This document shows positions 45,360-60,164 of a stretch of DNA of 64,000 nt, in pieces; positions within the stretch are counted from its first letter, which is position 1; every line of letters begins with the position of its first letter. The notes below the pieces were generated by a model. That model did no database searches. It had not been told where the DNA came from and saw only the letters and a program-made list of their open reading frames with translations. Made by a program: the position numbers and the translations under genes. Origin of the DNA: Desertimonas flava (GTDB lineage Bacteria > Actinomycetota > Acidimicrobiia > Acidimicrobiales > Ilumatobacteraceae); NCBI RefSeq assembly GCF_003426815.1, contig NZ_QKYK01000012.1, forward strand, positions 62,001 through 126,000. Direction: 5' to 3'.

Positions 45360-45420
45360 CAGAACTGGGCTGACCGTCGAATGGGGGTTTCGCGGTGTCA
45401 AGACGGGCCCACCGTCGCCG

Positions 45421-45954
45421 CTACTCCTGCTCGGCGTTCGGAGCGTTCCGATGGGCAATGTAGGCCCCGCGGTTCGATGCCGGCGGCCACCACTGGAAGG
45501 TGAGAAGTTCGCGCCACCGACCTCGGTCTCGCCACTCCAGCCGCATGACACACGGCCCATCGCCTGGCTGCCACGCGCCTTCGCCGCTCTGACCGAACTC
45601 GGGCACCAGCTGCACGGCGGACCGGCCAGCAACGGCAAACGGCTTTGCAAGGTCGAGCCTGTCACCCGCCTCTGGTCGCAGGGTTGCTCGAGTGGTGAGC
45701 CACTCGAGCACGTTTCCGTCCACGACTGCCCGCAGATCCTCAACGGCAATGGACGGGGCGCCGGTGTTGGTCAGCACCAGGGGAAACCGGAGGCGAGCTT
45801 GCTTCGCCAGAAAGACGGATCCGTACCCATTGGGGGCGAAGGTCTTCAGTTTCCCGCGGCGCACGTAGATCCACCAGAACGAGGCCACCGTGAACACGAG
45901 CGCCAGCACGGGCACGAAGTGGCTCCAATGCGTCACCACCGCCAGAGCAGCCAT
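45421..45954 (-). CDS. Small membrane-anchored protein of unknown function
   Basis: 177 residues. One or two membrane helices at about 8-32 (FVPVLALVFTVASFWWIYV) are followed by a soluble domain with RFPLVLTNTGAPSIAVEDLRA, an immunoglobulin-like strand pattern, and Trp-rich ends (LLTFQWWPPA). It faces the DUF4145 gene divergently. TACGCT lies 8 nt before ATG 45954. I recognise no family. Confidence 0.55.
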   Translation of the reverse strand: MAALAVVTHWSHFVPVLALVFTVASFWWIYVRRGKLKTFAPNGYGSVFLAKQARLRFPLVLTNTGAPSIAVEDLRAVVDGNVLEWLTTRATLRPEAGDRLDLAKPFAVAGRSAVQLVPEFGQSGEGAWQPGDGPCVMRLEWRDRGRWRELLTFQWWPPASNRGAYIAHRNAPNAEQE

Positions 45955-45962
45955 GTCAGCGC

Positions 45963-45968
45963 AGCGTA
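45963..45968 (-). promoter_or_regulatory. -10 hexamer TACGCT for the 177-residue membrane protein
   Basis: On the minus strand TACGCT ends 8 nt before ATG 45954, within the 154-bp divergent gap to the DUF4145 gene. Confidence 0.4.
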
Positions 45969-46108
45969 CGCGGCGCGGCCGATCGGACGTGACCTGAGGA
46001 CCGTCGCGCCGGGACGATCGCTACGATCGGCCTGCAACCTGGGGAGGGAAAGATGAAGCAACGAGCCACCGCGGTCCACGCCTGTGGGGCAGGCTGAGGA
46101 TCTCCGCC

Positions 46109-46927
46109 ATGCTGAGGATCCCGCAGGCCGATATCGGAATGCGCAGTCAGGGCAATCGCTGGTTCCCGGGCAGCGCACGCGTCGAGTGTCCGTGTTGCGG
46201 GCGACTCGGCTCGATCACGTTTCCTCCCTACGACCCCGGTGTCGTCGTCCGGCAGCAATGCCCGAACACCGAGTGCCGGACAGCGTTTCACTTCCTGGTC
46301 ATTGAGGGGGAGGGAAGCATTCGTCGCGGGGATTGGCGTGGAGAACTCTGGATGCATCCGCCAGCCCGCAAACAGCGACAGCCGAAGCCACTCGACACGA
46401 TCGATGAGATCAACGCACACCTCCGTGAGGACTACGAGGAAGCGGTCGACCTCTTCAACCAGAGGTACTGGCGACCAAGCGCAGCGGCGGCGGGACGAGT
46501 CGTCGAAGGCATCGGACGTGACCGAACCGGTACCGACTCGATGCTCGGACGGCTCCGCACCGAACTCGTCGAACACGGCTTCACCGGGCTGGCAGCTGAC
46601 GTTCTCGAAGCCATCAACAAGGCCCGCAACTCCGCTGCGCACTACGACACCAAGGCGAACGTCGGCGAGATGTACGCCGAGGCCATGCTCGACCTCGCTG
46701 AGTCGGTCATCGATCTCGCCTACCTCGCACCGCGGCGCATTTCGCTGCTCACGCACCTCATCAACGGTGGTACCGGGGCCGACACCGAGATCGCCGACAT
46801 CGCCCGGCGGGCGGCAGAGATGCAGCGCGTGTACGACTCCGGCGGCATGACGGCGATGGTGCAGTGGCTCGCGCGCAAGCACCCCCAGAGCCCGGCACCA
46901 GAGGAATCCCATCCAGATGTCGAGTGA
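46109..46927 (+). CDS. Zinc-ribbon protein with DUF4145-like domain
   Basis: 272 residues. An N-terminal Cys4 knuckle (ECPCCGRLG ... QQCPNTECRT, about residues 27-56) likely binds Zn. The region about 110-215 (SAAAAGRVVEGIGRD, LRTELVEHGFTG, NKARNSAAHYD) fits the DUF4145 helical domain found in accessory and defence loci. A TGAGGA ribosome-binding site precedes ATG 46109. The last 11 bp overlap the next gene. Cargo or anti-phage function is possible but unproven. Confidence 0.65.
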   Translation: MLRIPQADIGMRSQGNRWFPGSARVECPCCGRLGSITFPPYDPGVVVRQQCPNTECRTAFHFLVIEGEGSIRRGDWRGELWMHPPARKQRQPKPLDTIDEINAHLREDYEEAVDLFNQRYWRPSAAAAGRVVEGIGRDRTGTDSMLGRLRTELVEHGFTGLAADVLEAINKARNSAAHYDTKANVGEMYAEAMLDLAESVIDLAYLAPRRISLLTHLINGGTGADTEIADIARRAAEMQRVYDSGGMTAMVQWLARKHPQSPAPEESHPDVE

Positions 46928-47174
46928 CGATGCTCGCGGGCCGGAGCACTTCGACGGCGAGATGTTCAAACTCGAACTCGGCGTCATGCGAAACGACCTG
47001 GTCGAGGCGCTCACGAATCTCGACATCGCACGGCTGTGCTACCTCGCCATGTCGCCCGACGATCAAGTCGGACTGGACGCTCTCGATCCGATCAAGGACC
47101 TCGAGTACCGAGGGGCCGAGATCGCCAGGCGGGCGGAGCGGCTGCGTCTGCACATGTTCGGCAACGACCGGTGA
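46917..47174 (+). CDS. Small coupled protein downstream of the DUF4145 gene
   Basis: 85 residues, helical and acidic (FKLELGVMRNDLVEALTNLDI, DLEYRGAEIARRAERLRL). ATG 46917 overlaps the DUF4145 stop by 11 bp, so translation is coupled. No known domain; a two-gene unit with the preceding protein is likely. Confidence 0.55.
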   Translation: MSSDDARGPEHFDGEMFKLELGVMRNDLVEALTNLDIARLCYLAMSPDDQVGLDALDPIKDLEYRGAEIARRAERLRLHMFGNDR

Positions 47175-47203
47175 CGGGGGCACCCTCGCACCACGAGCTG
47201 GGG

Positions 47204-47527
47204 TCAGTATTCGTCTGAACCGTACTCGTCCACCTTGAAGACGGTCTTATCCACGCGCCGTTCGTGCTCCCAGGCGAGGTGACGAGCCCAGAGCCCGACG
47301 AGCACGACCGAGCCGCCGACCGCGACGGAGATCGCATGTGGCGCTCCCCAGTTAGCAGCGAGGCCCGTCAGCCCGAGCACAGCACCGACGATCGGAACCA
47401 CGACGAGCGCCATCGACGTCTTCGCTATGCGCTTGGGAGCGCGAGCAGATTCCACGAATCCGCCGAGCATGAACACAGCTGAGAGTGTGACGATCGCTGA
47501 CCAAAAGTCGGGGTCACCTTTGTCCAT
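47204..47527 (-). CDS. Small membrane protein at the 3' end of the late operon
   Basis: 107 residues with three hydrophobic segments (about 8-27, 36-58, 62-80), then a charged tail (RHLAWEHERRVDKTVFKVDEY). It follows the terminase gene by 30 bp on the same strand. A holin-like role is conceivable from size and topology only; no lysin is nearby. Confidence 0.5.
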   Translation of the reverse strand: MDKGDPDFWSAIVTLSAVFMLGGFVESARAPKRIAKTSMALVVVPIVGAVLGLTGLAANWGAPHAISVAVGGSVVLVGLWARHLAWEHERRVDKTVFKVDEYGSDEY

Positions 47528-47557
47528 CCCAGTGATCGTTGCAGGTCGGCGAAGGAG

Positions 47558-49072
47558 CTAGAGAAGGGGGCCGCCGTACACCGTGGGCACGCCGTGGTTG
47601 TGGACGGCCCAGTGTGCGAGACTGACGGCGATCAGTGCGGCGTGGTCGCCACCGTCGGCGTGGCGGTCGATGCCCCAACGGTCACGACTGAACCTCGGCC
47701 GGGCCGCCGTGATCGCCTCAGCGAGCTGCTCGTCGTCCTGGTGGGCGATGCGGCCGTCGGTGATCGCTGCGGCGAGTTCACCGGCCGCAGTGTGGATGTC
47801 GGCGGTGCGGGCCTCGATCACGGTGACGCCGGCCCGCTCGAGCGCGGCGATGGTCCAGGCGAGCGGTCCGAGAGCGTCGACGACGACCGGTGCCGAGTCC
47901 CGGTTGGCGTACGTGGCGATGGTGTCGACGATCCAGGCGACGCCCGGCTCGTTGAAGAACACCTCGACCGCGACGAGGTCGGGTCTGCCCGCGGCCTCAC
48001 CGGCCGCGGCGATGACGGCGTGGTCGCCGTTGGGGTCGGCGTCGATCGCGTACATCAGCTCGCCGGGATAGGCGATGTCGATCACCGGGGCGGCGGCCCA
48101 GGCGTCGACGTCGAGGAGCTGGAGCTCGGGTCGGTTGGTGTGCATGCAGAGGTACTCCTGTCGGAACTGGTGGGCCGTCATCGACTCGGCCTCGATCTGC
48201 AGGTAGGCGGTGGACAGGCCGTTGGGCTGATCGAGCGTCGGGATCGTCGTCGCCCACACGTCGGGGTCGTAGATGTCGGCGTCATCGGCGGCGGACCACT
48301 CGAACCAGGCCCGTGACCGGTCGCCCTCGGCGACGGCCCGGCGGCCGAGCTCGCGCTCAGCGTTGAGCAGCGTCGACGAGTCATCGCCGGCGTTCGACAC
48401 GATGACGAGCTGGGCGCCGATGCAGCCGATCGCACCGTCGCGCTGCGCCTGCGTCGGCCGTGTCGAGCCGAGCAGCGCGACGGTGTGGGCGAGGGCCTCG
48501 TCGATGATCACGAGGTCGAACTTCGAGCCACGCGGCCCGGTGTCCGACGGCGTGAACACGCTGTACGCCGAGCCGTTTCGGAACCGCACCGACTCGTCAC
48601 CACGCTGACGCACGACCCGGTCGACCTCGCTGCGCAGGTCGGACGACATGATCATGTCGACGTGCTCGAAGAACCGCTTGAGCGCGGCGGCGCGGTCCTG
48701 CGCCGTGAACCCGATGTACTGCGGCACGATCCGCTCGAGCCCGACGAGCGCGGCGACGTCAGGCAGATCCGGCAGCATCGCCTGCGTCGCGATGCGCACC
48801 GCGGCCCGCGTGGTCTTGCCGGTCTGACGGCCAACGAGAACTCCGACGATCTGCGCGGCGAGCCGCAGCCGCGACGCTCCCGGGTGCCGGGCCGACGGGT
48901 CACGCTCGACGAACTCGCCCGACACATCGGCGACGTACTGCTGCCACGGATGCAGCTCGAGGCCCATCGCGTCGGCGATCTGCGTCTCAGCGGTGCCGAG
49001 CGTGGGGCGCGTCGGATCCCGCGGTGTGCCGAACCGAGGTGGCACGAGCCGGGCCATCGTCGTATCGGTCAT
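47558..49072 (-). CDS. Phage terminase large subunit
   Basis: 504 residues from ATG 49072. The ATPase domain has VGRQTGKTTRAAV (Walker A, about 78) and FDLVIIDEA (Walker B with catalytic Glu). The RNase H-like nuclease has Asp residues in YAIDADPNGDHAV, VVVDALGPLAW and RHADGGDHAALIAVSLAHWA. It packages DNA into proheads. The ATG overlaps the HNH stop by 4 bp. Its presence means the element can direct its own packaging. Confidence 0.9.
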   Translation of the reverse strand: MTDTTMARLVPPRFGTPRDPTRPTLGTAETQIADAMGLELHPWQQYVADVSGEFVERDPSARHPGASRLRLAAQIVGVLVGRQTGKTTRAAVRIATQAMLPDLPDVAALVGLERIVPQYIGFTAQDRAAALKRFFEHVDMIMSSDLRSEVDRVVRQRGDESVRFRNGSAYSVFTPSDTGPRGSKFDLVIIDEALAHTVALLGSTRPTQAQRDGAIGCIGAQLVIVSNAGDDSSTLLNAERELGRRAVAEGDRSRAWFEWSAADDADIYDPDVWATTIPTLDQPNGLSTAYLQIEAESMTAHQFRQEYLCMHTNRPELQLLDVDAWAAAPVIDIAYPGELMYAIDADPNGDHAVIAAAGEAAGRPDLVAVEVFFNEPGVAWIVDTIATYANRDSAPVVVDALGPLAWTIAALERAGVTVIEARTADIHTAAGELAAAITDGRIAHQDDEQLAEAITAARPRFSRDRWGIDRHADGGDHAALIAVSLAHWAVHNHGVPTVYGGPLL

Positions 49073-49362
49073 CGCGGCAGCGAACTCCTGGAGGCCGGCC
49101 GCTTCACGCGTGCGCCACGGCGACGCCGGTTGGCGTTGGCAACCCTCCACCCTCCGGATTCCTGGTTGCACGACAGGTGCGCCGGCAGCAGCCGGCAGCA
49201 GCCCGACCCCGCCACGTGGGTGTGCAGCCCGAGCGCCGGGACGTGATCGATCGACCGCGCCCCGACCTTGCCGCACAGGTGGCAGCGCGCCGGCGTGCGA
49301 CGCAGCTGCTCGAGCGCCCGCACATAGGCCGGCTCACCGTACGGCGACCCACGGCGCGGCAT
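49069..49362 (-). CDS. HNH endonuclease next to terminase
   Basis: 97 residues from ATG 49362 (MPRRGSPYGEP); an in-frame codon at 49437 would add 25. CHLCGKVG, SIDHVPALG, and LLPAHLSCN give the Cys pair, the catalytic DH and the closing H/N-C of HNH enzymes. In many siphophages such an HNH sits beside the large terminase and is needed for cos cleavage. No small terminase is recognised. Confidence 0.8.
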   Translation of the reverse strand: MPRRGSPYGEPAYVRALEQLRRTPARCHLCGKVGARSIDHVPALGLHTHVAGSGCCRLLPAHLSCNQESGGWRVANANRRRRGARVKRPASRSSLPR

Positions 49363-49475
49363 CACCGCTCCCGGCCCGCCAGCACCTCGCCGACACACAC
49401 ACCCGAAGGACAGTGTCCGGCTGGGACGGCTACACAAAAAACTGGCTGTGACCTGGGGTTATGGTTCCGCATCGT

Positions 49476-49898
49476 TCAGCTGGCGCGTTCGAGGATGGGC
49501 GGCGGCGTCTCGGCTTCGACGATGTCGGGTGGGCACATGGCGTCGACGCCGATGGTGACCTCGACGGTGAGGGTGAGCCCGGTGTGGTCGCGGTCGGTGG
49601 GTGAGCTGGTTTGGCTGCCGGTCCATCGGATGCCCGGGGTGGCGTCGATGGCGTCGCAGACTTTGGCGGTGACCTCGTCGAGGCCGGCGATCTGGGCGTG
49701 GTCGGCGCCGTCGTAGGAGATGACGACGGGGACTTGGGCGACCTTGAAGGTGCCGCCGCCGGATTGGCGGTGGCCGGGTGCGGCGACGCCGAGGTAGATG
49801 CATGGCATCGCCTCTGACCCGTAGGGGTGGACCCGTCCGGGCAGGACCGGCTCGAGCGTGTCGACGATGAGTTGGCGGGCTTGGGCGAGGCGGTTCAT
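49476..49898 (-). CDS. Phage tail-completion-like protein (uncertain)
   Basis: 140 residues from ATG 49898. The layout (RLAQARQLIVDTLEPVLPG, VHPY, PVVISYDGADHAQIAGLDEVTAKVCDAID, LTLTVEVTIG) resembles small head-tail/tail-completion proteins of siphophages that lie between capsid and tape-measure genes. It overlaps the upstream gene by 4 bp; the stop is at 49476, 113 bp before the HNH start. Confidence 0.5.
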   Translation of the reverse strand: MNRLAQARQLIVDTLEPVLPGRVHPYGSEAMPCIYLGVAAPGHRQSGGGTFKVAQVPVVISYDGADHAQIAGLDEVTAKVCDAIDATPGIRWTGSQTSSPTDRDHTGLTLTVEVTIGVDAMCPPDIVEAETPPPILERAS

Positions 49899-50167
49899 GG
49901 TGCGGGTTCTTTCCAGTCGGGGTCGGTGATCCACGCGATGGCGAGCTCGGCCATGAGTGCGTGGGGGTCGCGGTCGACGAGTTCTGCGACGCGTCGGATG
50001 TCGAGGGCGACGATGTGGGCGAGGCGTTCGGTGACGGCGGCGTGGAGCTCCGGGTTTCTGGTGAGCGCGGCGAGCGCGGGGCGGCCGAGTTCGTTCCAGT
50101 CGTCGATCGCTGCGGTGGCGAGTTCGATGACGGCGGCCGTGATCGAGTCGTCGTTGGGGGTGTTCAT
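49895..50167 (-). CDS. Small protein between tape measure and tail protein
   Basis: 90 residues, helical and acidic (DSITAAVIELATAAIDDWNEL, AELVDRDPHALMAELAIAWI). Four-base overlaps on both sides place it inside the coupled morphogenesis operon. A tail assembly chaperone would fit the position, but usual chaperones lie upstream of the tape measure and use a frameshift, so I leave it unassigned. Confidence 0.55.
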   Translation of the reverse strand: MNTPNDDSITAAVIELATAAIDDWNELGRPALAALTRNPELHAAVTERLAHIVALDIRRVAELVDRDPHALMAELAIAWITDPDWKEPAP

Positions 50168-52809
50168 CGCTCCACCAGCCGTGAGCCGTCGATGCGTGGT
50201 GTGTGGCGGATGTAGGCGTCCATCGGCACGCGGACCGTACCGACCCGCGCCTGGAAGTCGGCGGCCGTCGGGAGGTCGATCGTGCCCGTGACGAAGTTGA
50301 CGCGGACGGTGCGTTCCTCGACGAGTCCGTCGACCTGCCGCTCGAACTCGCCGCTGTTGCCGATCTCGAGGTCGGCGGTGATGGTTTGGCCCTTGAGGTC
50401 GGCGAACACGTCGCCGTCCTTCGCCAGCGACGTGTCGAGCTCGACGGCAACCTTCGTGGTGCGGTCCTTCGTGACCTCGCCGATCGTGTCGTCGAACTGC
50501 TTGGTCACGGGGAGGATCCCGACCTCGACGGTCGGCTCGGACTCCTCGATCGCATCGATGTCAGCTTCGAGGCCGTCGACGATGGCCTTGAGGTTGACGG
50601 GGACTTCCCAGTCGGGGGAGGCGGCTTCCAGCTCGGCGATGGCCAGCTGTGCTGCTGCGACGGGGTCCTCCAGGCTGAGCGCAGCGATCCGCAACTGCAC
50701 CTCCGGCGGCAGCCCGTCGATCACACCCTTGATCGAGTCGAGGATGCTGAGCGCCTGCTGCTCGTTCGAGATCACGATCGCCGTCTCCACCTGGGGCGGC
50801 AGCAGATTCAGCGCGCCGAGGATCTCTTGGATCTGCTCGTCGGACTCGACGCCGGCGGCGGTGAGCGAGTCCGTGATGGCACGGCGGGTGTCCTCGGCCC
50901 AGCGTTGCACCTCGGGGGCGCCGCCGGCTTCGAAGGCCTGCGCCATCTCCGACTGAACGTTGTCCCGGAACCCCGAGAGGGCCTGCAGCACGGGCTGGAG
51001 CTCCTCGGGCATGTTCAGCACCTCGTCCCAGCTGTCGGGGACGAGGTCGAGGTTGGCGAAGTCCTCGGAGCCGAGCTCGTCGCGGAGTTCCTTCACCGCG
51101 TCGCCGAGCGAGTTCATGCCGTCGACGAACGACACGAGCTCGATCGACTGGGTGAGTTCGCTCATCCGCTCGAGGCCGTCGGTCGCCGCTGTGAACGCCT
51201 CACCGCGCAATGCCGCTGCGTCGAGGCCTTCGGCGATGTCGGCGAGGCTGTCACCCATCGCGTCGATCGCCGCCTTGGCGTCGTCGGCGCCCTGCCTCTG
51301 TGCTTCCCAGAACTCGAGGCCCTTGTCGAGCACGGTGTCGAGATCCCAGCCGGTCTGTTCGATCACGGCGTTGATCGCCTGCCACTGCGTTTCGCTCGGC
51401 TCGAGCCCTTCGCGGAGCGAGTTCGCCGCGTCGGCGATCAACGCCCACGTGAGGCTTGTCGGGTCGATCTCACGGTTCGCGTCTGCCCACCGCCGAGCGG
51501 CATCGGCCGCCGTGTCGATCTGCCCGGTGATCTGCGTCCAGATCTCCCCGGCGGTCGCTTCGGGGTTCGCTGCTTTCGCCGCGGCGATGAGTGCCGCGGT
51601 GGCGGGGTCGGCTGCTGCGGCGACCGACAGCAGCTTCTCGGCGTAGCCGTCCCAGTCGTTGTCCTGCTGAACGTCGTTGAGCTGCTCGAGCGCCCCGATC
51701 TGCTCCCGGTACTGGTTGACCAGCGCGAACGCGGCGTCCTCCTCCATCCCCCACGTGTTGATCAGGAACGACGCGGCGTCGTCGAGGCTTTCGATGTTGT
51801 GCACCATCGCGGCGACGGCGTCGATGTGCTCGGGCGGGATCCCGGCCGCCTCGGTGAGCGCGCGCATGGTCGGCATCGCGCTCTCGGTGTCACGCTCGAG
51901 ACCGGCGATCGTCTCGCCGAGGTCCTCCCACGTCAGCCCGACCGCTCGGAGCGCCTCGTCGATCTTGTTGATCTCGCCGTAGTTCTCCTCGCCGGCGAGC
52001 GCCGTGGCGATCGATGCGCCGAACTGCTCGAACGCGTCGCCGCTCGTTTGCGCCGCGCCTTCGAGCCCGCTGACACGGTTCTCGAGTTCGTCGAGCAGGC
52101 CGGCGGCCTCGATCGCCGCGTCAGCAACGGCGGCGGTCTGTTCGGCGGTCCGTTCGGCGCGGGTGCCGAACGCCTCGAACGCTTGCGTCGCCGCGAACCC
52201 TGCGGCGGCCACGCCGAGCATCGGCCCGGCGACCTTCGCGAGGTTGCTGAGTGAGATGTTGCCGTCGACGGCGTACTCGACGAGCTGGCCGAGCCCGACG
52301 CCGAGGGTGCCGACGGCGCCGCCGAGCTCACCGAGGTCCTGGGCCGTGTTGCCGGCCAGGTTGGCGAGCACGCTGCGGGACTGGTCGCCGGAGGCACGGA
52401 CCCGGCCGAGTGCGCCGTCGACGTTGGTGAGGCCGGAGTTGACCGCATCGAGCTTGATCTGATCGACGCGTTCGATCACGTCGGCAAACTCCTTCGCCTG
52501 CGCCTCGATGTCCTCGAACGTGAGACCCATCGACCTCAAGTTGGCGACCATCTCCTCGACGCGTGGCTGGTCGAACGCGGGGCCGAGCGCGTCGCCGATG
52601 GCCTTCACGGCGTCGACGGTGCCCTGCAGTTCCGTCTCGGCGTCGTCGGCGAGCGCTCGGAGCGTCTCGAGGGCTTCGGTGACGCGGCTGGGGTCGGTGT
52701 CGCCGAGCTCGTCGAGGCGGTCCTCGAGGCGTTCGACGGCGTCGGTGGCGTCGTCGATGCCGGAGGTGTCTGCGTCGAAGCCGACGCGGTAGGTGTATGA
52801 ATCGCTCAC
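50164..52809 (-). CDS. Phage tail tape measure protein
   Basis: 881 residues from GTG 52809, which has a GAGGAG ribosome-binding site just upstream. Coiled-coil N-terminus (DAVERLEDRLDELGD), long helical stretches, a hydrophobic patch at about 180-215 (AGNTAQDLGELGGAVGTLG and VAGPMLGVAAAGFAATQAF), and a repetitive acidic C-terminal half are typical of tape measures, which set tail length. At about 0.15 nm per residue it would imply a tail near 130 nm; this is a family rule of thumb, not a measurement. Confidence 0.85.
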   Translation of the reverse strand: MSDSYTYRVGFDADTSGIDDATDAVERLEDRLDELGDTDPSRVTEALETLRALADDAETELQGTVDAVKAIGDALGPAFDQPRVEEMVANLRSMGLTFEDIEAQAKEFADVIERVDQIKLDAVNSGLTNVDGALGRVRASGDQSRSVLANLAGNTAQDLGELGGAVGTLGVGLGQLVEYAVDGNISLSNLAKVAGPMLGVAAAGFAATQAFEAFGTRAERTAEQTAAVADAAIEAAGLLDELENRVSGLEGAAQTSGDAFEQFGASIATALAGEENYGEINKIDEALRAVGLTWEDLGETIAGLERDTESAMPTMRALTEAAGIPPEHIDAVAAMVHNIESLDDAASFLINTWGMEEDAAFALVNQYREQIGALEQLNDVQQDNDWDGYAEKLLSVAAAADPATAALIAAAKAANPEATAGEIWTQITGQIDTAADAARRWADANREIDPTSLTWALIADAANSLREGLEPSETQWQAINAVIEQTGWDLDTVLDKGLEFWEAQRQGADDAKAAIDAMGDSLADIAEGLDAAALRGEAFTAATDGLERMSELTQSIELVSFVDGMNSLGDAVKELRDELGSEDFANLDLVPDSWDEVLNMPEELQPVLQALSGFRDNVQSEMAQAFEAGGAPEVQRWAEDTRRAITDSLTAAGVESDEQIQEILGALNLLPPQVETAIVISNEQQALSILDSIKGVIDGLPPEVQLRIAALSLEDPVAAAQLAIAELEAASPDWEVPVNLKAIVDGLEADIDAIEESEPTVEVGILPVTKQFDDTIGEVTKDRTTKVAVELDTSLAKDGDVFADLKGQTITADLEIGNSGEFERQVDGLVEERTVRVNFVTGTIDLPTAADFQARVGTVRVPMDAYIRHTPRIDGSRLVER

Positions 52810-52819
52810 GGTGTGCTCC

Positions 52820-53287
52820 TCACTGGCGGAAGGGGTTGTTGGCGCGAGCCGACTGGTCGGCGGCGCGACGGATCGTGGTTTGGGCGGTGCGGGTGGCGTT
52901 GCGCCAGAGGGGTCGGCGGCGGGTGCCGGGGTGCTGCACGGTCTGCGCGTAGCGGCCGCTGTCGAGCTTGAGGACGCGGCCGCGGCGAGGGCGGATCGTG
53001 TGCGCCTTGGCACCGGAGGCGAGCCCCCATGCGGCGCGTGGTGAGGCCGACAGCTCGAGCGCGGCGCCTGCGTTGCTGCCTGAGACGTCGGTGTCGACGT
53101 CGAGCCGCATCCGGGCGTTCGAGAGCGTGAGGCTGCCGCGTTCGGATCGGACCGCGTCGAGGACGGCGTCGGCCGCTGGTAGGGCGACGTCGGCGGCGAT
53201 GGTGCGTGGGAGTTGCTGGGCGCGGCGTGACGCGCCGGCGAGGGCCCGGCCGAGACCACCGGCGCCGGAGGCGTTGACGCGGATCAC
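52820..53287 (-). CDS. HK97 gp10-like minor head-tail protein (uncertain)
   Basis: 155 residues, basic. RVNASGAGGLGRALAGASRRAQQLPRTI and AVLDAVRSERGSLTLSNARM resemble gp10-family neck proteins, and the Arg-rich tail (RRRPLWRNATRTAQTTIRRA) suits DNA contact. It overlaps the upstream gene by 4 bp and ends 10 bp before the tape measure start. Confidence 0.55.
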   Translation of the reverse strand: MIRVNASGAGGLGRALAGASRRAQQLPRTIAADVALPAADAVLDAVRSERGSLTLSNARMRLDVDTDVSGSNAGAALELSASPRAAWGLASGAKAHTIRPRRGRVLKLDSGRYAQTVQHPGTRRRPLWRNATRTAQTTIRRAADQSARANNPFRQ

Positions 53288-53562
53288 AGCTGGCGTCCTT
53301 CGCTGCTGGAGGCGAGGTGGTCGAGCAGCTCGGCGTCGAGCGCTTCGACCTCCGAGCGTCCGAGTTCGATCGCGTATTCGAGGAGCTGCTCGTGCAACAT
53401 CTCGATGCAGGTGCGGAGCGCGGCACGGCTCTCGACGTTCGCTTCGAACATCGCCACGATGGCGCGCTGCTCGGCCTGAGCCTGGGCGAGCTCAAGTACG
53501 GCGGCTTGGAGTCGCAGCTTCGTGGCGCGGTAGCCGCGGCGGTCGTCGTCGAGCGTGCTCAT
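53284..53562 (-). CDS. Small helical protein of the morphogenesis operon
   Basis: 92 residues forming one long amphipathic helix (RATKLRLQAAVLELAQAQAEQ, HEQLLEYAIELGRSEVEALDA). Overlaps of 4 bp on both sides. It could be a scaffold or chaperone by shape and position; no family recognised. Confidence 0.5.
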   Translation of the reverse strand: MSTLDDDRRGYRATKLRLQAAVLELAQAQAEQRAIVAMFEANVESRAALRTCIEMLHEQLLEYAIELGRSEVEALDAELLDHLASSSEGRQL

Positions 53563-55406
53563 GCTGTGCGACTCCGGTAGCTGGTAACGCCGGCGTCGGC
53601 GTACGCGCCGCGGTGCTCGAGGGCGACGGCGTCGAGGTGGACGTTGGTGCGCCAGCGGACGCCGTCGCGTTCGATGGTGCCGCCGGGTCGTTCGCGGAAC
53701 TCGATCGACAGGCCCGTGACGCCGTTGGCGAGGAGGTCGGCGACGTCGGCGCGGCGGGTGCTGATCACCTTGAACTCGCCGTGCAGCCCGTCAGTGTGCT
53801 CTTCGAGCGAGGTGGCCGGGCCGAGGTAGCCAAGGCCGGCGCCGCCGTGCTTGTGGCGCAGGTCGACGCCGGCAACGGCACCGCCGGTCTGGCCCGCGAA
53901 CGCACCCCGGCGGAAGCCTTCGCTGTAGCGGTCCCAGGTGCCGTCGGGTCGCGGGTCGGCGACCCGGGCAGAGACGTCGAACGGCACCAGCCGCCCGAAC
54001 AACTGCCCCTCAGACATCTCGAGGTCGGCGGGGAACGATCGCACCAGCAGCGCCCGGGCGGCGGGGCGGGCGCGGTTGGGAGCGGCTTCGGCGAGTCGTC
54101 GATCGACGTGAGCGAGCGCGTCGTCCAGGCTGCCGGCCGGCGGCGCTGGCGGGTCGAGATCGACGATCGGGGTCGTGCTGCGGGTGTGGTGGTCCCACCG
54201 CTGGCAGGCCTCGGCGGCGAGGTCCCACAGCCGCCAGTAACGCTCCGGACGGGGCCGCGAGCTCGGGCGTGACTGTTCGACGTCGAACTCGATCCACTCG
54301 ATCGGTGACGGGGCCACGTTCGCCGGGTTACGCACGAGCGACACCTCGTTGATGCGGTCAACGAGGAAGTGCTCCTGGCCTTCGATGAGTCCGCCGCGGC
54401 CGGACTCGCCAGGACTGAAGTACCAGTCCTCGCCTCGCAGGATCGGCACGATCTGGTCGGCGAGACAGCGGGCGACGACTGCGACGCCGAGCGTTGGGCC
54501 TCGGGCGATCAGTTCGACCTGTCCGACGGCTTGGCGTGGCAGGTGCTCGAACCACACGGGGATGCGATCGGGCTGCTGTGGGTCGTAGTAGCCGGGCTTG
54601 GCCCAGCCGGCAGCCATTCGGCCGGTGCCGTCGCGGTGAAGGTAGATGCCCTCGGGCGTCGTGATGATGCCGAGCAGGGTCACGGTGTTGTCGGGCGTGA
54701 GCCGTGAGCGGTCGAACTGATGCCGGAGCTCGACCGTCGACCGCTTCGCCGGCTTGTCGTCCGGTGGCGGTGGTGGTGTGGCGTCGCCGTCGACGATGCG
54801 GGGCCGGGCACGTCCCTCGGCGGCGCGGGACACGAGGCTGCCGAGCATCGACGTCCGAGCTCGCCGCCAAAGCCCACCCCACGCCTCCGGCGCCGGGCCC
54901 TCTCGGGCGGTGTCGAACGGCAGGACCCGCGCTCTCACGGACCACGGCTCGCGGCGGTCGCTGGTCAGCACGAGACCGGTCAGGACGGCGTCGGTGCCGT
55001 CGAGGGCGTACTCGGCGGTGACCCACCAGTCGCCCGACTGGAGCGGCAGGTCGTACCAGCGGGCCCGGTGCCCGGCGCGGATCTCGCCGCGCGACATCAC
55101 GCGGCCGGCGACGGAGAGCCCGTCAGCCGCGGTGGTTTCGAAGTGCTCGACGTAGCCGACGGTCGCCCCGAGCGCCTTCGGGTGAAGCGAGACGATCGGC
55201 ACCTGCTCGCGGACCACGAACCGTTCCGGCAGCAGCGGCTCGCGACGCCACGACGGTTCGGGGTTCGGCACCCCGGCGGCCGGGACGATGCTCGCGCCGA
55301 TCGTCATCCAGCGTTCGGTGTTGGCGGCCGGGACGTAGTCGGTGGCGATCAGCCGGTCGACGTCGATCCTGCCGATCGCTCGTTCGAAGCCGTATGGGTT
55401 CTTCAT
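53559..55406 (-). CDS. HK97-type prohead protease fused to a large N-terminal region
   Basis: 615 residues from ATG 55406 (AAGGAG ribosome-binding site). The C-terminal ~170 residues are a complete HK97 prohead serine protease: GQLFGRLVPFDVSARV, YSEGFRRGAF, LRHKHGG (His), GYLGPATSLEEHTDGLHGEF and GLSIEFRERP (Ser). The middle region (about 240-400) has a second protease-like pattern (WFEHLPRQAVG, GEDWYFSPGE, RINEVSLVRNPANVAPSP), and the first 190 residues repeat VGYVEHFETTAADGL-like strands. Ordinary prohead proteases have about 150-220 residues. Confidence 0.8.
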   Translation of the reverse strand: MKNPYGFERAIGRIDVDRLIATDYVPAANTERWMTIGASIVPAAGVPNPEPSWRREPLLPERFVVREQVPIVSLHPKALGATVGYVEHFETTAADGLSVAGRVMSRGEIRAGHRARWYDLPLQSGDWWVTAEYALDGTDAVLTGLVLTSDRREPWSVRARVLPFDTAREGPAPEAWGGLWRRARTSMLGSLVSRAAEGRARPRIVDGDATPPPPPDDKPAKRSTVELRHQFDRSRLTPDNTVTLLGIITTPEGIYLHRDGTGRMAAGWAKPGYYDPQQPDRIPVWFEHLPRQAVGQVELIARGPTLGVAVVARCLADQIVPILRGEDWYFSPGESGRGGLIEGQEHFLVDRINEVSLVRNPANVAPSPIEWIEFDVEQSRPSSRPRPERYWRLWDLAAEACQRWDHHTRSTTPIVDLDPPAPPAGSLDDALAHVDRRLAEAAPNRARPAARALLVRSFPADLEMSEGQLFGRLVPFDVSARVADPRPDGTWDRYSEGFRRGAFAGQTGGAVAGVDLRHKHGGAGLGYLGPATSLEEHTDGLHGEFKVISTRRADVADLLANGVTGLSIEFRERPGGTIERDGVRWRTNVHLDAVALEHRGAYADAGVTSYRSRTA

Positions 55407-55795
55407 GGGCGTTGCTCCTTGGGTGCGGGCGGTTGTGTCTGGTCTGCTCGCGGCTTCGAGCGATAGGCGTCGGCGAGGGGCTCCCACGGCGACTCGAGGC
55501 GTGACTCGACGACTGCGAAGGCGAGCTGCTCGCCGTGCCGTCGCTGCAGTGCTTCGACGAGGAGCTCGGCGCGCCGCTTGTTCGGGCCGAACGTGGCGGT
55601 CTGCTCGGCCTCGCCGGCGAGTCGCCAGCGGGCCCGGTAGCCGCGGCGGCCGAGCACGGCTGCCATGTCGACCTCGGGGTGCTCGGCGAGGAGACGTCGG
55701 GTCAGCGTGGCCGGCGGGCGGTGCCTTTCGCCGAGGTACTCCACCGTGCGCACTCGCTCCGGTGGCGGCGCGATCTTCGGCTTCGGCACGCTCAC
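55403..55795 (-). CDS. Unknown protein upstream of the protease
   Basis: 130 residues, basic and Pro-rich at both ends (KPKIAPPPERVRTVEYLGE ... QTQPPAPKEQRP), with a central helical part (RRLLAEHPEVDMAAVLGRRGY). Four-base overlaps on both sides. No family recognised. Confidence 0.5.
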   Translation of the reverse strand: MSVPKPKIAPPPERVRTVEYLGERHRPPATLTRRLLAEHPEVDMAAVLGRRGYRARWRLAGEAEQTATFGPNKRRAELLVEALQRRHGEQLAFAVVESRLESPWEPLADAYRSKPRADQTQPPAPKEQRP

Positions 55796-56001
55796 GCCGC
55801 GCCCTCCCTCGTGAGTGCAGCGACGGCCCGTGCCGCCAGGTCGTGCACGGTGCGGCCCTCACGGCGGTGCCGGCGGTGCACGAGACCCGCGGCACGGACG
55901 AGCCGGCGGCCGACGATCGCCGAGCCGAACACGGCGTCGACGTCGACCGGCCTCGACGAGCGCAGCTCGTGAAGCGCACACAGAGCGCAGTCATGCTCCA
56001 T
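55792..56001 (-). CDS. Small CxxC protein
   Basis: 69 residues opening MEHDCALCALHELRSS, a possible metal-binding CxxC knuckle, then an Arg/His-rich helix. It overlaps both neighbours (10-11 bp upstream, 4 bp downstream), so it is a translated member of the operon. No function assigned. Confidence 0.45.
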   Translation of the reverse strand: MEHDCALCALHELRSSRPVDVDAVFGSAIVGRRLVRAAGLVHRRHRREGRTVHDLAARAVAALTREGAA

Positions 56002-56266
56002 CGCTGGCCTCCTCGGCTGAAGGTGCCGGATTCGTGACCGGAGTTGCGGCGGCGGTCTGGCGTGGAGCGACGAGCACGCCGTCGCCGGCCTCCGTCAGTG
56101 CCGGGCGAATGACCTTTGCGATCGCCCACGGCGCGATCCGCACCATCACGTCGTGGTCGAGCTCGAGCGTGACGACGGCCCGCTCGACCGCGGCCACGAT
56201 GCCGCGGAGGCCGCACCGCATCTCGACCTCGTCGCCGACGAACGTGTGGACGCGGCGGCGCTTCAC
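55991..56266 (-). CDS. Small protein of unknown function (SH3-like strand pattern)
   Basis: 91 residues. GDEVEMRCGLRGIVAAVERAVVTLELDHDVMVRIA reads like a small beta-barrel (KOW/SH3-like), followed by a flexible Ala/Pro/Thr tail. Overlaps upstream by 4 bp. Confidence 0.45.
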   Translation of the reverse strand: MKRRRVHTFVGDEVEMRCGLRGIVAAVERAVVTLELDHDVMVRIAPWAIAKVIRPALTEAGDGVLVAPRQTAAATPVTNPAPSAEEASDGA

Positions 56267-56556
56267 GAGGCACCACCCTTCGCCGGTCCGCCACCGCGCA
56301 ACGCCGGCGACGCATCAAGCGCACCTGCGGCCCGATCCCGGCGGGCCTGATGCCGACGCTCACGGACCTCGGCAGTCTCGGACAGCGGCGCGGAGCCGGG
56401 CGGGGACCAGCCGAGAGCCTCGAGCAGGTCGGCGAGCTCGGCGATGACGGCCCTCTCGTCGCGCGGTGTGAGCTTCACCTCGGCGGCGTCGAGCGAAGCC
56501 CGGAACGCATCGGCGACCACCGCCTGCGCACGCGTCGTCCACCGATCGCCGATCAC
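56263..56556 (-). CDS. Small helical protein downstream of the replication gene
   Basis: 97 residues (RAQAVVADAFRASLDAAEVK, ERAVIAELADLLEALGW). It starts 118 bp after the replication gene stop, beyond the GTGTTCC repeat cluster, and is the first gene of the tightly overlapping run that leads into the structural operon. Confidence 0.5.
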   Translation of the reverse strand: MIGDRWTTRAQAVVADAFRASLDAAEVKLTPRDERAVIAELADLLEALGWSPPGSAPLSETAEVRERRHQARRDRAAGALDASPALRGGGPAKGGAS

Positions 56557-56589
56557 GACCGACGCTCCGGAGGGGCAACGGACCCGGGG

Positions 56590-56757
56590 GTGTTCCTTTC
56601 AGGAAACACCCCCCGTGTTCCGATTCTGCTCGGTGAGTGTTCCGAAGTGTTCCGGGACGGTGTTCCTACCTGGTCAGAGGGCATGTCCGTTCTCCTGTCC
56701 GACCTGTGTTCCGAATAGTTGCGGGCTCAATGTTCCGGTGGGTGTTCCGACCGTTCC
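56590..56757. repeat. Iteron-like cluster of GTGTTCC heptamers
   Basis: Seven exact GTGTTCC copies start at 56590, 56615, 56637, 56647, 56660, 56706 and 56742, with near copies ATGTTCC (56730) and CCGTTCC (56751) and one inverted GGAAACA (56602) that forms a hairpin with the first copy. They span the 3' end of the replication gene and the gap after it. Such clusters next to a replication gene are usually origins (Rep binding) or operator arrays. Confidence 0.7.
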
Positions 56758-58122
56758 TGAGTGGGTCAGACCGGTGCGGCGATACCGCAGTGCGGCCGCC
56801 AAGACCTCGCTCGTTCCGATCTGCCGGCCAGCGGCCTTGAGTGCGGCACGGGCGTCCCGGTTCGATGCCTCCCGGGGCAGATCGAGCTCGTCGAGCTCTC
56901 GGGCCTTGGCCTCGGTGCCGGCTGGCCAGCTCGACGCCGAACGGTGGTAGCTGATCGGTGCGGATCCGTCGGCGCCTCGAATGACGAGCGTCATCTCCTT
57001 CGCGTACGCGGCAGTGCGGCGATGGGTGGTGGTCAGCTTGACGCCGTGATCGGTCCGCGAGACGAAGACGGCGGCGTCGGGCTTGTCCACCTTCACTGAC
57101 GACCCACGGGCGCGTTTCTCGTCGCCATGGCCAGCGTTGTCGGTCGTGACGATCGCGACGCCTCGACGCTTGAGCGGAGCGATCGTCAGGTCGTAGAACG
57201 GTCGCCACGTGGTGTCGTCGTTCTCTGGGCCATCGACGGCCCCGTTGATGCCATCGATGATGAGGAGATCGACACCGAGCCGGTCGACGTCGGCGAGCAG
57301 CAGGCCGGCACCAACGGCCGTGTCGAGCTTCGGGACGATGTCGGTGTAGTGCAGTCCGACCAGGTCCGCAGGGGTCAGGCCAAGGTCGCAGAGCCGCTCG
57401 AGGACGTCGAGACGACCCATCTCGGGGTCGACCACCATCACGCAGAGCGGCCGGCGTGCGCCGCCTTCGAACGGATCCTCGCCCCGGTGGCATGCGAGCG
57501 CGACATGCATCAGGAGCGTGGACTTGCCGGTCTTCGGCTTGGCCGCGAGTGCTGTCCAGCGGCCCCGGAACGCAAATTCGTCGACCACCGGGCGCTCGTC
57601 GACGACGCCAGAGAACAGCGCATCCCAGTCGACGAACTCCATCCCGGCCCGCTGGCTCGTCGTCCGCGACGCCGCCGGCATCTCGTCGATGGCGCGGGTG
57701 ATCGCTCTGTCGTCGCCCTCCCATGCCGCTCGGCTGAGCTCAGATGCCGCGGTGATGAGTCGACGCCGACGGGACGTGTCGGCGATCCGCTCGACGTAGA
57801 TGCCGACGGCGGACACGCTCGGTGTGGCGTTCTGCAGCCGGTGCAGTGCCTCGAGCCCGCCCGCGGCGTCGAGCGTTCCGGCCGCGCGCATCTCCTCGGC
57901 GACGGTGACGACGTCGACGTCGTCACCGGATGCGTACACCTGGCAGATGGCATCGAAGATCAGGCGATGGCTCGGGCTGTGGAAGTCGGACTGATCGAGC
58001 GACGCACGGCCAACCGCAGCGAACGGGTCAGCTCCGACCGCAGGGCCGAGCAGCAGACAGCCCAACAGCGCGCCCTCGGCGTCGAGCGCGTGGGGTGGCT
58101 CGGGGCGGCTTGTCGTCGTCAC
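56674..58122 (-). CDS. Replicative ATPase: DnaB N-terminal domain plus RecA-like/AAA_25 domain
   Basis: 482 residues. Residues 1-115 match the DnaB N-terminal helical domain (LDAEGALLGCLLLGP, SPSHRLIFDAICQVYASGDDVDVVTV). A RecA/RepA-type ATPase follows: Walker A AKPKTGKST (about 192), MVVDPEM, Walker B VDLLIIDGINGA and TTDNAGHGDEKRARGSS. The C-terminal ~90 residues may bind DNA. It probably loads or unwinds DNA for element replication, close to the GTGTTCC array that overlaps its 3' end. The start overlaps the upstream gene by 4 bp. Confidence 0.82.
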   Translation of the reverse strand: MTTTSRPEPPHALDAEGALLGCLLLGPAVGADPFAAVGRASLDQSDFHSPSHRLIFDAICQVYASGDDVDVVTVAEEMRAAGTLDAAGGLEALHRLQNATPSVSAVGIYVERIADTSRRRRLITAASELSRAAWEGDDRAITRAIDEMPAASRTTSQRAGMEFVDWDALFSGVVDERPVVDEFAFRGRWTALAAKPKTGKSTLLMHVALACHRGEDPFEGGARRPLCVMVVDPEMGRLDVLERLCDLGLTPADLVGLHYTDIVPKLDTAVGAGLLLADVDRLGVDLLIIDGINGAVDGPENDDTTWRPFYDLTIAPLKRRGVAIVTTDNAGHGDEKRARGSSVKVDKPDAAVFVSRTDHGVKLTTTHRRTAAYAKEMTLVIRGADGSAPISYHRSASSWPAGTEAKARELDELDLPREASNRDARAALKAAGRQIGTSEVLAAALRYRRTGLTHSGTVGTPTGTLSPQLFGTQVGQENGHAL

Positions 58123-58382
58123 CGAGACCCCTGACTATGGGCGTCCGCATACTGCCGGGCGGTGTGCCTCAGCGCGTCGGCGGCGCTGGATTGTCCGGCC
58201 TGCTCGGAACGGTCGGCGGCCACCAGGCGCTCGAGCACCTCGCCGCACGGCCGACCGTCGGCGCAACGCTGGTGTGCCCGACGGATAGAATTCCCATCGT
58301 CACCAACGCCTCGGAGACAACTCGCCCGCCCGCCGCCCGTCCCATCCCCGGGCGGCGGCGGCGCGTCAGGCGGCGGATGCAC
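58119..58382 (-). CDS. Small protein preceding the replication gene
   Basis: Up to 87 residues; the first ~20 are Pro/Gly-rich and the true start may be internal. DGNSIRRAHQRCADGRPCGEVLERLVAAD has two Cys; the tail is helical. It overlaps the genes on both sides (17 and 4 bp). No family recognised. Confidence 0.45.
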   Translation of the reverse strand: MHPPPDAPPPPGDGTGGGRASCLRGVGDDGNSIRRAHQRCADGRPCGEVLERLVAADRSEQAGQSSAADALRHTARQYADAHSQGSR

Positions 58383-58656
58383 CGTCAGCCCGCTTCCGAG
58401 CTCGAGCCTGCGCCGACTTCAGCGCGAGTCCGGCGTAGTGCGCTCGCTTCGCTGCCTCAGCTGCGGCCAGCCGCTGCTCATCTGTGGCGTCGGCGAAGCG
58501 GACCGGGTCGAGCTTGGCGATCCAGTAGTCGATCGAGCCGGGGCCGGCATTGCGACCTCGCTGGGTGCGGGCGGTACGGTCGGGCGTGTTCGCCCAGGAC
58601 TTGAGGCCGCCGAGACGGCCGGAGAGTTGACGGTGTGGCGCAGCAGCGCGGGACAT
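58366..58656 (-). CDS. Small basic protein, early region
   Basis: 96 residues, strongly basic at both ends, with KSWANTPDRTARTQ and SIDYWIAKLDPVRFADATDEQRLAAAEAAKRAHYAGLALKSA split by a turn; a DNA-binding helix pair is possible. This pattern resembles small actinophage early proteins but I cannot name a family. Confidence 0.5.
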   Translation of the reverse strand: MSRAAAPHRQLSGRLGGLKSWANTPDRTARTQRGRNAGPGSIDYWIAKLDPVRFADATDEQRLAAAEAAKRAHYAGLALKSAQARARKRADGASAA

Positions 58657-58823
58657 CAGAACCTCCGAGGTTCCTAGTCACCTGAGCTACTGGTGTTCTC
58701 CCGGCCAAGGGCGTGCGCACCGTACTGGTAGGGATCCGGAGATCCGCTGGTCTCTCCCGGCTCGGCCGACCAAACCGATGTGCAGGGGGAGGACGAGTCC
58801 TTCGATCGGACGCTTCGGGTGCT

Positions 58824-58840
58824 GTACCGGAGGCCGGTAC
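58824..58840. repeat. 7-bp inverted repeat GTACCGG/CCGGTAC in the early intergenic region
   Basis: gtaccgg (58824-58830), spacer agg, ccggtac (58834-58840). It lies in the 200-bp gap between the zinc-ribbon gene (ends 58858) and the next early gene; this is where a promoter/operator for the leftward early-late operon would be. The rest of the gap shows no gene. Confidence 0.35.
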
Positions 58841-58857
58841 CGCCAGGCCGCTCTATG

Positions 58858-59175
58858 TCACAGCGGACTATAACGCACGTCGACGCGAGCGCGGAGTTTC
58901 TTGCCTGTGCTGGGGTCATGCGTCGGTCGGATGATCAGCCCGAACTCCTGCCCGCACGAACACGTCCCCACGTACTGGCGGACGACGTCTCGGCGCCCGC
59001 TGACGTTGCGCATGCGGACGTTCGGCTCAGGCTGAGCGAAACCGTACGCGTCGACACGGGCGACTCGCCGCTGATCACACGCCGCCCGGCAGCAGTTCAC
59101 CGGCGTGCCGTCGCCCGGCGCCATCTCGTATCGGTCCAGCCGGGACCACTTCGAGTATCGCCCCTTCTCGGTCAT
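58858..59175 (-). CDS. Small zinc-ribbon-like protein downstream of the recombinase
   Basis: 105 residues from ATG 59175, whose last base is the first base of the recombinase stop. VNCCRAACDQRRVARVDAYG and GTCSCGQEFGLIIRP supply five or more Cys in CC-x3-C and C-x-C pairs, suggesting a metal-binding fold; the position beside int suggests an excisionase-like or regulatory role, by context only. Confidence 0.5.
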   Translation of the reverse strand: MTEKGRYSKWSRLDRYEMAPGDGTPVNCCRAACDQRRVARVDAYGFAQPEPNVRMRNVSGRRDVVRQYVGTCSCGQEFGLIIRPTHDPSTGKKLRARVDVRYSPL

Positions 59176-60107
59176 CACAGATCTCCGGCGATGTTGAGGC
59201 GGGCATGTTCGGCGCGGCCGCGCTCGGCTGCTGCGGACCGGGCGTATCGGCGGACCATCTGTGACGAGCGCCAGCCGGCCTCGGACATCAGCCCGCCTTC
59301 TGTGCCGCCGGCGGCGAGCCACCGGTGAGCGAACGCGTGGCGCCACGCGTGCGGGTTCGCCCGCTCGACACCGGCGCGCTCGGCGCGGCGCTGCAGCAGC
59401 TGCTGGATCCCACCACCGGTGAGCGGCCCGAGCTTGCCGATCCACAGCCGATCCGTCGTCGAGCCCTTCGGGTGCAGCTTCCGGGCCCGCAAGTAGCGAC
59501 GGAGCGCGAGCGCGGTGCCGTCCTCGATGTGCACGAGCCGCTCACGGCGCCCCTTGCCCATCACCCGGACCGTCTGTGCACGGAGGTCGAGGTCGTCGAG
59601 CGTGAGGCCGGCCACCTCGGAGCGGCGGCACCCGGTGGTGAGCAGGAACCGCATGAGCGCGAGGTCGCGCACGCCGTCGAAGTCGGCGCCGCAGGTGGCG
59701 AAGATCTGCCGGAGTTCGTCGTCGGAGAGGACCGGGGTGAGCAGTTCGGGCCGCTGCGGCCGCTCGACGCCGGCCATCGGGTCCTCGGCGCAGAGCCGCT
59801 CGACGGTCGCCCACTTGAAGAACGCCAGCAGGCCGCCCCATCGGGTGACGGCCGTGGAGGCGCTGGTGCGCTCGAGGACCGCCACGAGGTACGAGCGGAT
59901 GTCGGCCGGGGAGATCTCGTCGACGGTCGTGGCGACACCACGCTGGCGCTGGTGCTCGAGCAACTGTACGACGGACGTGGCGTACGTCTTGCGTGTCTCG
60001 GGCGACCGGTTCAGCTGTCGGAGCGTCAGATCCCACTCGTCGAGGGCGTCCTCGAGCTCGACGCCGGCCGTGATCCGCTCGTGCGCCGGCGGCTTCCGCT
60101 TCGTCAT
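59175..60107 (-). CDS. Tyrosine integrase adjacent to attR
   Basis: 310 residues. N-terminal core-binding domain (about 18-110), then catalytic domain: R in TTGCRRSEVAGLTL, K in MGKGRRERLVHI, HAWRHAFAHRWLAAGG (H-x-x-R), and nucleophile Y in MVRRYARS. It lies 107 bp from the attR core, the normal place for the integrase that made the insertion. TATCTT stands 8 nt before ATG 60107. Confidence 0.9.
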   Translation of the reverse strand: MTKRKPPAHERITAGVELEDALDEWDLTLRQLNRSPETRKTYATSVVQLLEHQRQRGVATTVDEISPADIRSYLVAVLERTSASTAVTRWGGLLAFFKWATVERLCAEDPMAGVERPQRPELLTPVLSDDELRQIFATCGADFDGVRDLALMRFLLTTGCRRSEVAGLTLDDLDLRAQTVRVMGKGRRERLVHIEDGTALALRRYLRARKLHPKGSTTDRLWIGKLGPLTGGGIQQLLQRRAERAGVERANPHAWRHAFAHRWLAAGGTEGGLMSEAGWRSSQMVRRYARSAAAERGRAEHARLNIAGDL

Positions 60108-60115
60108 CGAGACGA

Positions 60116-60121
60116 AAGATA
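60116..60121 (-). promoter_or_regulatory. -10 hexamer TATCTT for the integrase
   Basis: On the minus strand TATCTT ends 8 nt before ATG 60107, the leaderless arrangement also used by host genes. Confidence 0.4.
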
Positions 60122-60164
60122 CCGCATGGATGAGCGTTGTAGGTGTATGGTGTGATCCACCAAA

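Follow-up and report, generated by a model that had tools for sequence, protein, structure and literature searches.

The 64,000-nucleotide stretch of Desertimonas flava DNA analysed here (contig NZ_QKYK01000012.1, hereafter the window) contains a whole integrated element of 17,468 bp at 42,759-60,226, between relA and the hisS side, as judged from the spacing of a direct repeat. The element is probably an integrative phage satellite that lacks a recognised capsid, portal and tail tube and carries its own subset of morphogenesis genes, all of them open: an HNH protein, the large terminase subunit (TerL), an S78 protease, a tape measure, a tail terminator and a protein of 155 amino acids (aa) that is homologous to a tail gene. 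A sequence-only reading of the window had singled out 47,204-58,656 as a phage assembly operon without portal or major capsid genes; this interval lies inside the element and makes up only part of it.

Starting from relA, the minus strand encoded an integrase (int1), proteins of 105, 96 and 87 aa, a DnaB-like helicase, four genes of 97, 91, 69 and 130 aa, a 615-aa protease protein, proteins of 92 and 155 aa, the tape measure (881 aa), a 90-aa protein, the tail terminator (140 aa), HNH, TerL and a 107-aa protein, and the far side of the element held cargo genes and a second integrase (int2) reading inward from the other end. The genes were tightly packed: their summed length equalled 94.7% of the element (~94% with 84 bp of overlap counted once), and the largest intergenic gap was 201 bp. 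Twelve of the 17 junctions in the operon at 47,204-60,107 were overlapping, nine by exactly 4 bp and three by 1, 11 or 17 bp, and the sequence-only description of 4-bp overlaps almost throughout was too strong.

Phage assembly genes and what is absent from them

Family searches covered all 25 element genes with Pfam, 20 with PHROG and 10 with NCBIfam. TerL (47,558-49,072, minus strand) matched a PHROG terminase at E 3.9e-40, was 56% identical to the TerL proteins of the siphophage contigs L009 and L010 from IMG/VR, and kept an ATPase-type motif, which I take to be its active site. The adjacent HNH protein (49,069-49,362, minus) is a probable partner of TerL. It was weak by PHROG (E 0.047), and its identity rests mainly on its position and its likeness to the HNH beside TerL in L009 (45% over 67 residues) and to an HNH in the TerL frame of L012, another IMG/VR siphophage contig (48% over 63 residues).

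The tail genes were recognised largely through L012. The tape measure (50,164-52,809, minus) matched the PHROG tape measure family at E 3.6e-4 and an L012 protein at 30% identity over 747 aligned columns (E 2e-67). The 140-aa protein (49,476-49,898, minus) was 39% identical over 96 columns to L012 5571-6023. It models as a tail terminator: an AlphaFold2 prediction from an alignment of two sequences, with a predicted local distance difference test (pLDDT) of 70, retrieved 22 PDB chains at E <= 0.001, led by the tail terminators T5 p142 and lambda gpU, with the gene transfer agent tail terminator likewise among the top matches. The 155-aa protein (52,820-53,287, minus), previously called neck-like, had a homologue at L012 6532-7014 (32% over 102 residues), placed between tail tube and tape measure, and the neck role found no support. 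Searching solved structures by sequence gave nothing useful for the terminator, the 155-aa protein or TerL.

The 615-aa protein (53,559-55,406, minus) carried an S78 prohead protease in residues 456-612, while residues 1-445 are without assignment. By family models the protease was weak: NCBIfam proheadase gave E 7e-5 and Pfam S78 E 0.011, neither of which reached the cut-off. Its sequence was 38-41% identical to the proteases of L009, L010 and L012, which adjoin portal and capsid genes, and 30-31% identical to those of L014 and L015. Residues 451-600 were modelled by AlphaFold2 at pLDDT 78-94 from an alignment of six sequences, and the T4 gp21 protease supplied the top three PDB matches (E 1.3e-4 to 3.8e-4). 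The columns of His520 and Ser567, presumably the active site, were invariant in the alignment. A match of residues 512-613 to phrog_2263, annotated 'major head protein' (E 1.3e-5), fell at profile positions 73-179; since the L012 protease matches positions 37-178 of this profile and the L012 capsid positions 173-534, the match reflects the protease part and not a capsid. The protease, tape measure, tail protein, HNH and terminase genes named by the sequence-only reading were all present and open.

Portal and capsid were searched for with profiles built from related loci. In the six frames of the element neither the portal profile (10 rows) nor the capsid profile (5 rows) gave a match at E <= 1e-3 with hmmsearch (best 0.8 and 0.4), and single-sequence queries reached E 0.06 for portal and E 0.35 for capsid at best, the latter in the same open frame as the protease. 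Single-sequence queries with the tail tube and connector of L012 likewise found nothing at E <= 1e-3. These six-frame profile and single-sequence scans left no remnant of portal, capsid, tail tube or connector at that threshold. Across the whole genome no match was found to PF05065, to one portal, to one capsid or to both profiles; the genome is an estimated 96.6% complete, which leaves some room for a resident helper. As controls, the portal profile matched 7 of 10 genomes, including G075, G089 and G676, none of which had contributed to it, and the capsid profile just 3 of 10, which makes the capsid negative the weaker one. The absence of portal and capsid noted from the sequence therefore stood, as did that of lysis genes, none of which appeared in the family searches. 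No baseplate gene was recognised. Regarding a repressor, also reported missing, no repressor or AlpA-like protein exceeded the cut-off, and the 90-aa protein (49,895-50,167, minus) gave sub-threshold matches only, including TetR C-terminal domains at E 0.0096. The 90-aa protein and the 92-aa protein (53,284-53,562, minus; coiled-coil-like by eye, with no Pfam or PHROG family match) neighbour the tape measure gene and are possible tail chaperones; in sequence searches neither gave an informative family match that would speak to a tail assembly chaperone or baseplate hub.

Structural comparison of the first 400 residues of the 615-aa protein and of the unassigned 69-155-residue proteins had been proposed from the sequence. 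The protease domain proved to have the T4 gp21 fold, and residues 1-419 fell below pLDDT 50; among the small proteins modelling covered the 140-aa one, and it resembled a terminator. Residues 1-445 had no match in sequence or profile searches. A portal-protease fusion gained no support: in comparisons with five of the ten portals none fell below p 0.1 (1000 shuffles, BLOSUM62), and a BLOSUM45 run against all ten gave p 0.055-0.86. With hhalign, residues 1-445 were matched or outscored by 56 of 60 shuffles against the portal profile and by 22 of 60 against the capsid profile. All four portals left out as controls, which share 23-44% identity with the profile's first sequence, were recovered at 99.9-100%; this control covered portals only. 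The idea of tandem degenerate protease domains, which came from motifs, was not borne out. hhalign gave 0.6% and 1.5%. In pairwise tests, 4 of 11 proteases gave p <= 0.035 with the second stretch and none of 11 with the first, and stretch against stretch gave p 0.016; with a hidden Markov model, 8 of 197 scored shuffles did as well as the second stretch or better, and the first scored above all 256 scored shuffles, yet at 3.0 bits only. Crude estimates of helix, sheet and proline content had no discriminating power.

A TerL profile match was present in 24 of 25 related loci, the exception being L012, whose TerL is more distant. Twenty-one of the 24 carried a portal in the same locus (12 of these had not been used for the portal profile), and 10 of the 24 had a capsid match. 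In the closest TerL relatives, L009 and L010, portal, protease and capsid follow TerL. L009, L010, L014 and L012 share a homologous TerL (46-56% in L009, L010 and L014) and protease with the element, L009 and L012 also the HNH, and L012 also tape measure, terminator and 155-aa homologue; they differ in carrying portal and capsid, arranged as TerL, portal, protease, capsid, and L012 has a tail tube as well. The fuller L012 order was TerL, portal, protease, capsid, connector (placed by position alone), terminator, tail tube, 155-aa homologue, tape measure, as opposed to protease, 92 aa, 155 aa, tape measure, 90 aa, terminator, HNH, TerL in the element, where terminator and HNH-TerL come behind the tape measure. 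As to relatives with capsid genes inserted in the same operon, which the sequence-only reading had named as evidence against itself, portal and capsid genes accompany TerL in the loci counted above; in L012, where the order could be read most fully, it is not that of the element's operon. As separate observations, the viral contig L015 has at 436-4083 a TerL (plus) divergent from portal and protease (minus), an unusual head-gene order that could be a misassembly, and in L111 5867-7409 TerL is spread over two open frames that overlap, perhaps through a frameshift or because the gene is split.

The three TerL loci without a portal were L011 and L033, in which TerL lies at or near a contig end, and L034. 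The latter, 7,637 bp long and from a genome of the same bacterial family, has ends that overlap by 134 bp (a circular or repeated form). Besides TerL it encodes an integrase, a helicase, a small-terminase-like protein (E 0.0018), an excisionase-like protein and a 187-aa protein, with no portal or capsid match. Its TerL was about 28% identical to that of the element, and L034 is likely to be a second, small packaging-type element. In L033 136-5529 an integrase lies by a gene we presume to be recG-like, together with a primase/helicase, HNH and a 92-aa protein, and TerL follows close to where the contig ends; this is possibly another element of similar sort.

No sister element was found in the genomes of relatives, class or order that were searched. 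TerL had matches in 7 of the 120 genomes of relatives and in 9 of the 395 from the class, and its profile in 13 of 397 order genomes (own counted in each); in the sequence searches of genomes none besides itself exceeded 35% identity (profile searches give no identity). A scan of genome contigs gave at least one confirmed TerL, at 22%, among the matches listed, and scans of viral contigs returned phage-type contigs plus one unclassified, L011. The 615-aa protein was found in 1 of 397 order genomes, its own, with no match among phages and one protease match among plasmids. The tape measure had no match among phages, and its profile matched 2 of 395 class genomes (own counted); a match in G011 was weak (E 4e-4), with flanks devoid of phage genes by eye.

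Insertion at relA and the remaining genes

The ends of the element were defined by a direct repeat of 43 nt (79% identity) with copies at 42,716-42,758 and 60,184-60,226. They share an identical 13-bp core, which lies at 42,746-42,758 on the left, within a displaced relA 3' end (42,700-42,758), and at 60,214-60,226 on the right, within the element-side relA 3' end (60,168-60,226, minus). The right copy forms the final coding part of relA (60,168-62,438, minus), while the left copy, read on the minus strand, provides a second relA ending, DAYRLVPGKGAKAVQAAS followed by a stop. relA was present in 56 of 61 genomes (own counted), and hisS came after it in 23 of the 29 relatives' relA loci examined, the other six having no hisS within the flank fetched. 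Over the last 30 nt of relA in nine relatives, hand-picked out of 26 listed, the displaced copy was the closer one in seven and the more distant in another, with one tie. Because of the repeats, the displaced ending and this comparison, the element most likely inserted into the relA 3' end and supplied a replacement ending. It is separated from hisS by one further gene (41,409-42,680) with repeated segments that I take to be PQQ-like. Beyond relA, a tandem array of 148-bp units (2.5 copies, 97% matches) was observed at 63,070-63,446, upstream of a presumably apt-like gene.

Two different tyrosine recombinases occupy opposite ends of the element, both pointing inward. int1 (59,175-60,107, minus), beside relA, matched PF00589 at E 2e-27; int2 (43,327-44,310, plus), which is XerC-like, matched PF00589 at E 1.9e-26 and NCBIfam XerC at E 6e-41, the latter below its cut-off. 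Recombinase motifs, which we take to be the active sites, were kept by eye. int2 overlaps by 4 bp a 159-aa protein (42,851-43,330, plus) with no Pfam or PADLOC match. Homologues of int1 (34-45% identity, E <= 1e-30) occurred in 6 of 99 other genomes; in the five flanks that were read (L047-L051), besides cross-matches of int2, only the 96-aa gene recurred from the element. The 87-aa and 96-aa genes lie at 58,119-58,656 (minus), and the 96-aa one has matches near related integrases in L050 (40% identity, 85 columns, E 6e-8) and L048 (41%, 46 columns, E 4e-4); an 80-aa look-alike was seen by eye in L051, these three loci belonging to other genomes of the order. Next to them are the replicative helicase (56,674-58,122, minus; PF00772 E 7e-20, PF13481 E 2e-14), 24-30% identical to phage helicases among the matches listed, and, between integrase and helicase group, a 105-aa protein (58,858-59,175, minus) with no family match. 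The four small overlapping genes of 130, 69, 91 and 97 aa (55,403-56,556, minus) gave no informative family match, and the 107-aa protein downstream of TerL (47,204-47,527, minus) is a probable membrane protein by its hydrophobic stretches, judged by eye.

The cargo included a candidate anti-phage pair of the PDC-S33 type (44,385-45,355, minus), formed by a RelA/SpoT-domain protein (44,636-45,355; PF04607 E 3e-15) and an 84-aa partner (44,385-44,639) that matched the PADLOC models at E 1.2e-57 and 9.9e-8. This RelA/SpoT-domain pair sits in an element that is itself inserted at a relA end. Other cargo (45,421-47,174) comprised proteins of 177 aa (minus), 272 aa (plus, weak DUF4145) and 85 aa (plus), in a stretch with a G+C content of 0.65-0.67 against about 0.70 around it.

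Satellite, reduced prophage or complete phage

The sequence-only reading had left the choice between a satellite and a defective prophage that lost its head genes cleanly; the former is better supported. The element resembles published satellites in its size and defence cargo and in having an integrase, a replication gene and genes for packaging (PMC13376191). A satellite is further suggested by the lack of a portal match in element and genome, by the terminator fold, by the precedent of tape measure replacement in the satellites named PLE (PMC12987554), and by L034 as a portal-less packaging element in the same bacterial family. The rival is a siphophage reduced by its head, tail-tube, baseplate and lysis genes and rearranged, with the remainder not yet decayed. 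This is rather unlikely, although homologues of the recognised structural genes are known from ordinary phages, related TerL loci mostly carry a portal, L012 holds a fuller gene set, and a single copy with no sister is known. A decaying prophage should leave remnants, and none were found; gene loss would have had to leave overlapping genes, ~94% coding density and zero detectable remnant. No single deletion in the L012 order can yield that of the element, in which terminator and HNH-TerL lie behind the tape measure. The attachment ends are in place, the protease His/Ser columns and the ATPase-type motif of TerL have been retained, and the element carries defence cargo. The satellite is accordingly favoured over a decayed prophage for its coding density and lack of decayed phage genes, and over a clean-loss prophage for its attachment repeats, dense genes and order.

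A small but complete phage, with portal and capsid too divergent to recognise, for instance a portal fused to the protease, would account for a 615-aa protein about as long as the neighbouring portal (398 aa) and protease (204 aa) of L009 combined, and for the lack of a usable model of residues 1-445. It is nevertheless improbable: these residues score like shuffles against the portal and capsid profiles while left-out portals are detected, and tail tube, baseplate and lysis genes are likewise unrecognised. HK97-fold capsids and portals have lower limits of size, and the other unassigned proteins, at <=177 aa except for the 272-aa cargo protein, are short for either. Even harder to credit is a defensive role, in which the phage-like proteins of a satellite or island would decoy or inhibit the assembly of phages and would not be built into particles of its own. 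A candidate defence pair does sit in the same element, and defence by interfering with tail assembly has precedent (PMC11364771), but HNH, TerL, helicase and integrase form a packaging and mobility set that a decoy would not need.

Several points weigh against the satellite. No sister element in the genomes searched attests conservation of the whole set, no helper was found, and helper-dependent excision, replication and transfer are inferred. No clear regulator was recognised, residues 1-445 matched nothing, and among the small proteins modelling covered the 140-aa one. The capsid profile, with matches in 3 of 10 genomes, gives a weak negative, the models of terminator and protease were built from 2 and 6 aligned sequences, and HNH and protease are weak by family models.

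If the element is a satellite, it would excise and replicate upon entry or induction of a helper phage, and its HNH and TerL would pack its DNA into procapsids built from helper portal and capsid protein. The protease, with its 445-residue extension, may mature helper-built heads or redirect their maturation, and the tape measure and terminator would replace those of the helper, giving a chimeric tail of helper tube, baseplate and fibres with a satellite ruler and cap; lysis would be left to the helper. As a guess, the tail would be shorter if the helper tape measure resembled that of L012 (988 aa, compared with 881 aa here). Taken furthest, and this I put forward only tentatively, the particles would be doubly chimeric, with the motor, maturation protease and control of tail length and capping supplied by the satellite, the capsid, portal and tube stolen, and the 445-residue extension a capsid-remodelling factor that targets the protease into helper procapsids. 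If the element works as proposed, head shell and portal would be taken from the helper while motor, maturation protease, tail ruler and cap are the satellite's own, and the fit of a foreign terminase, protease and terminator to a helper portal and tube would become testable.

Comparison with known satellites

Phage satellites have been delimited as elements with an integrase bounded by attachment sites (attL/attR), a size of 7-20 kb, replication and regulatory modules and no viral structural genes (PMC13376191). The element has int1 and int2 within a 43-nt repeat with a 13-bp core, measures 17,468 bp and encodes a DnaB-like helicase (56,674-58,122) as a replication module; it also carries protease, tape measure and terminator genes, which are viral structural genes. 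It would work like a satellite without being a certified member under the strict definition, and the same item excludes PLE and cf-PICI, for which the name satellite is nonetheless in use. Among open-licence papers I found none on phage satellites in Acidimicrobiia, nor any on phage satellites in Actinomycetota with a prophage integrase/terminase or tape measure.

Judged from secondary descriptions, cf-PICIs are satellites averaging 14 kb that similarly bring morphogenesis genes (PMC10803314), and they differ in making their own capsids, whereas the element has no recognised capsid or portal. The Streptomyces phage satellites Mulch and Flayer, from Actinomycetota, share a large terminase and HNH with the element, and one of the two has a tyrosine integrase; both come with genes for portal, capsid, scaffold and the small terminase subunit but without primases (PMC10690885), in contrast to the replication helicase found here.

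PLEs of Vibrio cholerae, compared by gene content as described, are of similar size (18 kb on average; PMC10803314) and have their own tape measure in a partial tail set. They replace the tape measure and baseplate hub of the helper, which gives shorter chimeric tails, and use its capsid, tube and fibres; this swap of a helper tape measure, the first reported for a satellite, dates from March 2026, and putative tmp genes were reported in PLE-like elements and cf-PICIs as well (PMC12987554). A satellite with its own tail ruler has thus been described only recently. In PLE11 a tail assembly chaperone and a baseplate hub lie beside tmp, as opposed to HNH-TerL, protease and terminator in the element. 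By gene content the Vibrio PLE is the closest working analogue; if the element works as proposed, satellite control of tail length and capping would extend to another bacterial lineage with a different gene set.

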